In this document: piece after piece, positions 15,127-29,376 of the stretch
Layout: every line of letters begins with the position of its first letter
How positions within the stretch are numbered: position 1 is the first letter of the stretch
NCBI RefSeq assembly: GCF_018228765.1
Contig: NZ_CP073695.1
Location: 2,046,001-2,110,000, forward strand
Source: Halorubrum ruber
Lineage (GTDB): Archaea > Halobacteriota > Halobacteria > Halobacteriales > Haloferacaceae
Direction: 5' to 3'
DNA length: 64,000 bases
The notes under the pieces: generated by a model
Databases searched by the model: none
Seen by the model: only the letters and a program-made list of their open reading frames with translations
Told to the model about the DNA's origin: nothing
Made by a program: the position numbers and the translations under genes

Positions 15127-15246
15127 ACGCGAGGAAACGACAGCGCGACGGAAATCGCTTCCGGGTTCGGTGGCGGCGGCTCCGGAAGGTGGAAACGACG
15201 TTGGTGTGTAATGACCGGTCAGGAGTCAGTCGGCTTCGAAAGAAAG

Positions 15247-15267
15247 TAGCGGGAGGTAGATTTGAAC
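15247..15267 (-). repeat. duplicated 3' end of tRNA-iMet
   Basis: A 21-bp perfect copy of 15380-15400, the 3' end of the tRNA gene (discriminator, acceptor strand and part of the T arm), 133 bp downstream in tRNA orientation. It looks like an attachment-site duplication. Confidence 0.8.
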
Positions 15268-15379
15268 CACGGTCACTCCGCTTCGCGCCGTTCCCTGGTT
15301 CAAACTGCTCCGGGGCTATCTCGTCGACGACGCCGTTCACGCCTCGCTGTGCTCGGCGTTCACTGTCGTCGACAAAAGA
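15268..15379. other. spacer between the two tRNA-iMet 3' ends
   Basis: 112 bp without a gene. It begins CACGGTCACTCCGCTTCGC and contains GGTTCAAA, which is complementary to the GAACC ending the duplicated T arm, so the stretch can fold back on it. A second inverted pair, CGTCGACGAC and GTCGTCGAC, lies further in. The tRNA-Trp spacer at 30354-30449 starts in the same way. Confidence 0.5.
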
Positions 15380-15454
15380 TAGCGGGAGGTAGATTTGAAC
15401 TACCGATCTCCGGGTTATGAGCCCGGCGGAATCTCCTGGCTATCCCATCCCGCT
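15380..15454 (-). tRNA. initiator tRNA-Met (CAU)
   Basis: 75 nt, no intron, CCA not encoded. The anticodon loop is CTCATAA (anticodon CAU), closed by a stem with three G-C pairs (GGG/CCC), the mark of initiator tRNAs, and an A1-U72 end pair. The T arm and acceptor strand (CCTCCCGCT plus A73) pair completely. Confidence 0.95.
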
Positions 15455-15612
15455 ATCGTAGCACAATCGGGTGCGACTGTTAAGGGTTCTGATCCCGACG
15501 CCGGTGTGCGATTCGTCCACGCGTCCGCGGCGGTCGCGAACCCTCGCGTGGGCGCCCGAATCGGAGCCGCAGATCGCACCGAGCGGCCGCTTCGCGGACC
15601 GCCTTTCCGTCG

Positions 15613-29075: not shown

Positions 29076-29376
29076 GGAGTGCGGTGGCGCGCCTCCGAGC
29101 GGCCGGAGCAAAGCGGAGGCCGCGAGCCAGCCCGCGAGGGACGCCGCGAGCGGAGCGAGCGGCGAGGCTGGGGAGGTGTGAGGCTGCGGTGCTGTGCGGA
29201 GTGGGTGGGACTCAAAGGGGCAGCCGTCGAGGCGGGCGGAGGCGATGTAAGTAGCGTGGCGCTACGCGCCACTGAAAGCCGGCGGCGAAGCCGCCGGCGA
29301 CACCGCAGGAACGAGCGAAGCGAGTGACGAGGAGCACAGCGAGCGTCCGCCCGCCTCGACGGCTGGGGCTTTGGAG
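29064..29376 (+). ncRNA. putative structured RNA, copy 2
   Basis: P1 at 29099-29123 is GCGGCC/GGCCGC with GA on both sides. P2 at 29143-29163 is GCCGC/GCGGC, GA/GA, GC/GC, GGA triloop, a shorter version of copy 1. P3 joins 29211-29240 and 29346-29376: CTC/GAG, AAAG/CTTT, GGG/GGG loop, then 20 uninterrupted pairs (CAGCCGTCGAGGCGGGCGGA on the 5' side). Copy-specific hairpins inside P3 are GTGGCGC/GCGCCAC and GCCGGCGGC/GCCGCCGGC. Ends are inferred from the shared sequence. Confidence 0.7.

Follow-up and report, generated by a model that had tools for sequence, protein, structure and literature searches.

Why the 3' end of an initiator tRNA gene should recur a short distance behind that gene is the question raised by a 64,000-nucleotide stretch of Halorubrum ruber DNA (NZ_CP073695.1, positions 2,046,001 to 2,110,000; hereafter the window). 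The only tRNA gene detected in it is that of the initiator tRNA-Met (CAT), on the minus strand (ARAGORN 15378-15455; Rfam tRNA model 15380-15454). As a first-pass annotation of the window had pointed out, 21 bp of its 3' end are repeated exactly 133 bp downstream: TAGCGGGAGGTAGATTTGAAC (plus strand) at 15380-15400 is a 21-nt match to 15247-15267 (start-to-start spacing 133), and the repeat extends to a 35-nt register with 86% identity. The spacer, which starts CACGGTCACTCCGCTTCGC, is self-complementary and can fold back on the copied T arm as had been described (arms 15261-15272 and 15293-15304, 92% complementary). It also contains, beyond that description, the tRNA 3' end once more in inverted and degenerate form. 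The predicted RNA fold of 15240-15379 on the tRNA-sense strand has an energy of -63.1 kcal/mol (z -4.87), and the DNA fold of 15240-15385 on the plus strand has a z of -3.62. The features of the locus are collected in Table 1. The earlier observation was correct yet far too modest, the iMet copy being one member of a widespread family with the same kind of anatomy at about half of the tRNA genes surveyed.

Table 1. The unit behind the initiator tRNA-Met gene (coordinates in the window)
Feature	Position	Strand	Basis or remark
Host gene of the unit, initiator tRNA-Met (CAT)	15380..15454	-	ARAGORN, Rfam
S, duplicated segment = tRNA positions 54-73 (T-loop to discriminator)	15380..15399	-	Position profile for the boundaries
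Whole inserted unit, 133 bp (trailer hairpin, antisense arm, core and S')	15247..15379	-	Empty sites in L066 and L070
Trailer hairpin (hp1), arms GTCGACGAC / GTCGTCGAC flanking a second palindrome	15323..15373	-	
AS, T-loop region of the tRNA in antisense	15297..15309	-	Degenerate match runs on to about 15320
Palindromic core, K3 type; sense strand AGGGAACGGCGCGAAGCGGAGTGACCG between GAACC and GG	15267..15296	-	
S', second copy of tRNA positions 54-73, attR-like	15247..15266	-	

When the H. ruber genome (3.02 Mb) was searched with the locus, a second match was found at the intron-bearing tRNA-Gln(TTG) gene, where the arrangement is as at iMet but the repeat is the 3' end of tRNA-Gln. An exact 16-nt piece of the core is confined to these two places in the genome, both behind a tRNA, and 8 further matches carry 2 mismatches.

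The tRNA genes of H. ruber and of three complete relatives (G027 of the same genus, G037 and G058 of other families; the tRNAs of the relatives are incompletely sampled) were surveyed for copies of their own tails. The terminal 13 nt are found again without a mismatch no more than 1.1 kb downstream of their own tRNA in 18/46 cases in H. ruber, and in 16/37, 19/56 and 13/36 cases in the relatives. The corresponding counts for non-cognate tails are 1/1,894, 1/1,218, 62/2,752 and 0/1,106. The third of these (G037) is too high owing to a dense tRNA array, L148, which was left out of the looser-criteria counts and of the core, profile, AS and loop analyses. The cognate tail is found upstream instead of downstream for 1 of the 46 H. 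ruber tRNAs. Since cognate tails lie downstream in 18/46 cases, against 1/1,894 for non-cognate tails and 1/46 for cognate tails upstream, the iMet copy is not a chance match, and the survey across tRNA genes rules out a one-off duplication at iMet. With looser criteria (type A, up to 3 mismatches over 20 nt; type B, up to 1 over 13 nt; both within 1.1 kb downstream), at least one own-tail copy was found for 82 of the 160 tRNAs of the four genomes, which represent three families (21/46, 21/37, 22/41 and 18/36, without L148), compared with 25/5,194 for non-cognate tails (10/1,729, 3/1,027, 8/1,364 and 4/1,074). The 160 tRNAs are ARAGORN calls; among them are two genes called twice (L138, L162) and one or more doubtful cases (L139, Glu-TTC), all of them lacking a copy. 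The excluded array (G037:C1:2633800-2637900) holds 15 ARAGORN tRNA calls in 4.1 kb and resembles the tRNA arrays of viruses or plasmids, here on a haloarchaeal chromosome.

Along the tRNA strand, a unit consists of a trailer hairpin, AS, a palindromic core and S'. Aligned to their own tRNAs, the 77 type A copies are 0.95-1.0 identical at positions 54-73. Identity is at the non-cognate baseline from position 53 leftwards, and to the right of position 73 it drops first to 0.66 and further on to roughly 0.3-0.56; the duplicated segment therefore runs from the T-loop to the discriminator. In 72 units, AS pairs with positions ~52/53-64 of the own tRNA, the cognate specificity fading past 64: position 57, a variable one, is paired in 0.85 of cases with the cognate tRNA and in 0.50 with non-cognate tRNAs, and position 62 in 0.86 and 0.58, respectively. 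At position 57, a mismatch to the own tRNA is seen in 11 of the 72 AS arms; about half of the 11 are misplaced or gapped arms, and some five are clean mismatches (Leu-TAA in G000, Val-GAC twice in G027, Val-GAC in G037 and Thr-GGT in G058), which look as if the arm derived from another tRNA.

In type B copies, S' corresponds to tRNA positions 61-73. The left edge of this class is fixed by the search window in the 13-nt-window profile, and anchoring the copies on positions 66-73 is the fairer test. Among 33 non-A copies anchored in this way, identity against the non-cognate value is 0.73/0.59 at position 62, 0.70/0.26 at 64 and 0.79/0.32 at 65, with positions 58-60 at baseline, which places a step at 61; 12 of the 33 have no match at 61-65, some of them perhaps belonging to a shorter class with S' from about position 66, others being due to chance. 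Such a possible third class, with a left edge set by the 8-nt anchor, is seen behind TCTTCC-type hairpins, for instance at Leu-CAA in G000, G037 and G058 and at Gly-TCC in G037.

By eye, two kinds of core recur: K1, CTATCAGTCGCGCGCAGCG...GCACGTCTGATTTC, with the longer relatives AGTCGCAGCC...GGACCGTCT, and K3, AGGGAACGG...GTGACCGTGG. The pairing between AS and the sense arm was followed in 39 K1-type units, picked by a pattern in which the T-loop motif and the inner-stem flanks are set but the complementarity of the inner stem is left free (rows of 43 columns). In these, 91.2% of the cells are paired, and 50 cells have changed on both sides, as opposed to 15.6 +/- 3.0 in shuffled alignments (none of 500 shuffles reaches 50) and at most 16 in slid (offset) versions of the alignment. 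Pairs with a two-sided change number 9, compared with 5.8 in shuffles (5/500). One of the five covariation measures, that of further pair types, is not above the shuffles in the 39 units (18 vs 16.0; 74/500), and the others are inflated by the kinship of the rows. The inner stem is 99% paired, with compensatory changes at 4 of its 5 pairs and no G-U pair. Fold prediction and covariation thus both describe a folded imperfect hairpin with complementary terminal arms, which is what characterizes an attC site.

The apical loops of these hairpins differ between the two types. On the tRNA-sense strand, a simple test classes the loops of type A as GNA in 34/85 cases, TNC in 1/85 and other in 48/85, and those of type B as TNC in 12/25 and GNA in 4/25, i.e. 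the GNA loop of type B is mostly on the opposite strand; in mononucleotide-shuffled downstream sequence, the control gives 3.1% and 4.4%. In both types this GNA/TNC polarity speaks for one favoured folding strand, with 48 of the 85 type A units undecided. According to the description in PMC4686876, extraordinarily stable DNA minihairpins are formed when a GNA or GNNA loop is closed by two or more G-C pairs. When 66 cores are folded with RNA parameters, 31 GNA and 2 GNRA loops are found among 76, and with DNA parameters 15 GNA and 2 GNRA among 96; the mean fold energy differs little between the strands (-34.4 vs -32.7 with RNA and -18.5 vs -18.0 with DNA parameters). Because the DNA folds give GNA in 15/96 loops and the strand energies are close, the argument for single-stranded DNA comes from the type of loop and its polarity, which suggest that the structure matters in DNA, and not on energies, which do not decide the matter.

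Units of this kind are common in the genus. With at most 2 mismatches, the K1 core is found in 30 of 33 genus genomes, at 1-10 copies in each carrier, the reversed-pattern control giving 0. In the two genomes for which this was counted, every match (5/5 in H. ruber, 10/10 in G027) follows a tRNA of the same strand within ~400 bp. Twenty-nine of 30 K1 loci could be parsed, and 26 of these have an intact tRNA 37-211 bp upstream; the thirtieth, L192, is placed behind tRNA-Asp by array comparison. The three exceptions are L191, beyond an integrase-bearing island, L197, near a contig end and with an island-like repeat, and L184, 1.8 kb from tRNA-Ala. A strict T-loop palindrome is present in 20/45 genomes of the window's order and in 0/201 others of the phylum (backwards pattern, 0/246); the strictness of the pattern makes 20/45 a lower bound, and for this pattern the family is restricted, within the sample, to one order. 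The order is presumably Halobacteriales, and the named carriers are Haloferax gibbonsii plasmids, archaeon J07HX64 and a Haloferacaceae bin. A tRNA lies upstream at all 20 palindrome loci (one per genome), 37-504 bp away, and 11 nt of S' are exact against the tRNA tail in 18 of them, with 2 mismatches in L221 and L235. It should be kept in mind that core or palindrome patterns were used to fetch loci L184-L236 (three of which led on to L214-L216), a choice that favours loci with units. A scan of the genome contigs with one overly strict pattern gave two loci only. Four strict patterns had no match in IMG/VR and the iMet unit had none in phage records, and no autonomous carrier element was found.

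The comparison of relatives shows that the units come and go. Among 34 relatives of the same genus, the iMet unit is matched in full in 8 and only from the tRNA side in 26 (an unrelated unit in these would be missed). Among 24 more distant relatives, 4 match it over its length and G058 partly; at least six more of these (G041, G042, G050, G053, G056, G057) have a second part-match 30-250 bp from the tRNA, with the interior unaligned. With full-length matches in 8/34 and 4/24 relatives, the iMet unit is neither universal at this gene nor specific to this assembly, which are the two outcomes that the first-pass annotation had named as speaking against its idea of an element or its scar. Empty sites are clean: carrier sequence past S' resembles non-carrier sequence past the tRNA (L040 vs L066 and L070; L060 vs L071), so that direct repeats of the tRNA 3' end are combined with a clean empty site, as is the case for tyrosine-integrase elements in tRNA genes. 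At the plasmid iMet locus of Haloferax gibbonsii, strains LR2-5 and ARA6 carry different units within an identical order of neighbouring genes. Behind tRNA-Asp, units form arrays with six arrangements in nine genus genomes, including D1-K1-K3 (G000) and D1-K3-K1 (G027); core labels were given by eye, and 7 of the 9 loci were fetched by core or palindrome patterns. Four copies follow tRNA-Lys in G027 at a 111-bp period, three successive periods being identical. Arrays with alternating or repeated units are also seen in G037 at L144 (tRNA-Tyr) and at L151 (tRNA-Ser CGA, period 69), and these would be useful to date duplications within arrays. Clean empty sites together with the gain, loss and reordering of units give good support to the second of the two origins that had been offered for the iMet repeat, that of a very small element in its own right.

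These comparisons establish the anatomy, host-tRNA specificity, distribution and turnover of the units, from which the enzyme and the strand mechanism can be inferred. Taken together, we tentatively read the units as tiny non-autonomous elements behind haloarchaeal tRNA genes, similar to integron cassettes and recombined via a folded single strand that mimics the T-loop, a reading to which we give a little less than an even chance. With the tRNA-sense strand single-stranded, the pairing of AS with S' would give the hairpin a base in which the T-loop region (~53-64) is reproduced as a duplex. A tyrosine recombinase, probably acting in trans, could then join this folded site to the T-loop of an intact tRNA gene, with the 7-nt T-loop as overlap; one strand would be exchanged and replication would finish the insertion, as at the folded attC of integrons. 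After insertion, the full tRNA would be kept and the old 3' end (S') would be found at the far side. The starts of type A at 53|54 (5' edge of the T-loop) and of type B at 60|61 (3' edge) would be the two cut positions of one staggered 7-nt exchange. Several precedents fit such a scheme as far as they are described in the sources: the cleavage sites of the archaeal integrases IntpTN3 and IntpT26-2 border tRNA loops (PMC8371274), the 7-bp overlaps of tyrosine recombinases fit tRNA loops (PMC8371274), and integron cassettes recombine via only one attC strand (PMC2727003). Recombination of this kind would entail that AS tracks the tRNA only over the T-loop region and S' reaches the tRNA end (gene restoration), and also that the arms covary, the loops are polar and the copies start at T-loop edges. 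It does call for an extra step (duplication, conversion or correction), since a 53|54 crossover into another tRNA gives a chimeric acceptor stem and cores are shared. Further points count against it, among them that compensatory changes without G-U intermediates also fit quasi-palindrome correction instead of selection, and that half or more of the type A units are not centred on a GNA loop by the simple test.

The behaviour of S' could also be explained by transposition with a 20-bp target duplication, in which a DDE or a Cas1/casposase-like enzyme would cut the tRNA gene at 54 on one strand and after 73 on the other and insert a hairpin fragment, S' being the duplicated target. This would account for S' matching the host tRNA though cores are common to different tRNAs, for the constant length of type A copies and for the clean empty site. 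However, it explains neither the tracking of the host tRNA by AS nor the type B copies, whose edge is at the other T-loop border and whose loop polarity is mostly opposite, and inspection by eye shows the insert ends to lack visible terminal inverted repeats such as a MITE would carry, the only arms being the internal AS and S'. We therefore consider it unlikely, though not far-fetched.

The alternation in orientation of S, AS and S' around palindromic loops can be reconciled with the absence of any mobile element, if template switching at quasi-palindromes made the inverted tails and slippage between S repeats made and deleted tandem units. Palindrome correction would fit the compensatory changes without G-U pairs, and slippage the three identical 111-bp periods at tRNA-Lys. 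We nevertheless hold this to be decidedly unlikely: cores of conserved sequence recur behind many tRNAs in many genomes, copy edges are at fixed tRNA positions, the order of units differs between relatives, and among the 11/72 AS arms mismatching their own tRNA at position 57 are the five or so clean ones that look as if they came from another tRNA.

A role at the RNA level, the unit being co-transcribed with the tRNA and its hairpins acting in termination, 3' processing or tRNA control, appears quite improbable. The strong fold on the tRNA-sense strand (z -4.87), the GNA triloops (31/76 loops of the RNA folds) and the covarying inner stem would agree with it, but T-runs directly follow many tRNA 3' ends (by eye), about half of the tRNAs have no unit, and presence varies within the genus. 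In addition, only 2 of the 76 predicted loops (66 cores) are GNRA tetraloops and the polarity of type B is mostly opposite. No Rfam family except tRNA scored above the cut-off: the window stretch (E up to 1) gave tRNA and one sub-threshold match over the tRNA itself, and five array loci gave tRNA only.

The other origin offered by the first-pass annotation, a scar or deletion derivative of a classic tyrosine-integrase island, found no support and is very improbable, for although a tRNA 3' end is a usual attachment site in the account of PMC8371274 and islands do occur at tRNA-Gly(TCC) in G016 (with an integrase domain) and apparently in G011, their attachment repeats start in the anticodon arm and not at 54, the unit lies beyond the island, and a scar explains neither AS arms nor cores common to different tRNAs. 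In G016 (L214, G016:C1:112700-123000), the element is ~8.1 kb long and its attachment repeat, ~49 bp by eye, begins in the anticodon arm and extends as far as the 3' end; the hairpin unit is separate, past the distal repeat. Its ORF 1241-1735 has a phage integrase domain (PF00589) and overlaps the upstream ORF as if the gene were split. The element also encodes a 1132-aa Eco57I/N6-methylase-like protein. Three other candidates were rejected: a retroviral-type primer-binding site is excluded by AS pairing with ~53-64 and not with the tRNA 3' terminus, a PATE/IS605 derivative is contradicted by the 20-nt duplication on both sides, and a CRISPR-like array is excluded by the "spacers" containing AS and shared cores.

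As regards known systems, the units combine two kinds: the non-autonomous element integrated in a tRNA gene and the cassette array with folded sites. CIMEs are non-autonomous derivatives of tyrosine-integrase elements in tRNA genes. Like tyrosine-integrase elements, the units have direct repeats of the tRNA 3' end, restore the tRNA and have a plausible exchange point at the T-loop edge. They differ in being mostly ~55-260 bp long, in carrying an inverted T-loop copy and unit-specific tails and in using about half of the tRNA genes, and at 56-256 bp most units in the arrays compared are too short to encode an integrase. Downstream of the tRNA gene tyrT of E. coli, too, there are tandem repeats (rtT/Rtu) that each include the 3' end of the tRNA, at a single locus there, compared with many tRNAs across an order here, and we know of no AS arm or folding site in them. 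With integron attC sites, the units share an imperfect palindrome with complementary arms of varying sequence, perhaps the strand polarity of the hairpins, and gain, loss and reordering; integron gene cassettes and attC arrays (CALINs), archaeal integrons (PMC9668308) included, are likewise tandem cassettes bounded by a repeated recombination site. In contrast to integrons, most units are too short for a gene, the platform is a tRNA gene, and the arms of the site copy the host tRNA. The PATEs/SMRs of Haloquadratum, in the description given in PMC3119063, are likewise palindrome-rich, transposase-free mobile repeats of ~50-110 bp in haloarchaea, but that description has them make no target duplication and does not present them as tRNA-bound, whereas the units are flanked by tRNA positions 54-73. 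Open-access papers on repeats tied to tRNA genes, mobile elements of haloarchaea, integrases, integrons, folded sites and DNA minihairpins yielded, as far as titles and the opening lines of abstracts show, no description of such units.

Going one step further, it is conceivable, though we think it less than probable, that this is a new system, spanning a haloarchaeal order, in which cassettes enter tRNA genes as folded single-stranded DNA with a hairpin templated on the T-loop of the host, types A and B, as insertions of the sense and the antisense strand, reflect the two cut sites of a 7-bp exchange across the T-loop, and the tRNA genes serve as dozens of parallel integron-like platforms, some perhaps gene-bearing. 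If so, half the tRNA genes of the haloarchaea studied would be landing platforms and the unit nearly a pure recombination site, and folded single-strand recombination, best known from integrons, would extend to archaeal tRNA genes. A large class of tRNA-flanking repeats which can confuse the prediction of islands and att sites would be explained, and a natural set of T-loop-specific sites would be at hand for tracing the responsible recombinase. Even with the mechanism wrong, a widespread repeat family specific to the host tRNA calls for an explanation.

At one locus (L216, G009:C35), 1.8 kb lie between tRNA-Ala(GGC) and a K1 unit, with forward ORFs at 783-1448 and 1441-1929. A protein with a nucleotidyltransferase domain (PF01909) is encoded there, and the adjoining ORF, which has no Pfam match, resembles the HEPN partner in an MNT-HEPN pair. 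The locus is possibly a gene-bearing cassette; alternatively, the 1.8 kb may be a later insertion. Finally, a lone GCGAGCGGAGCGAGC minihairpin motif is found in the window at 29146-29160, with no tRNA near it; the motif has 2 matches (at most 1 mismatch), compared with 0.45 expected.
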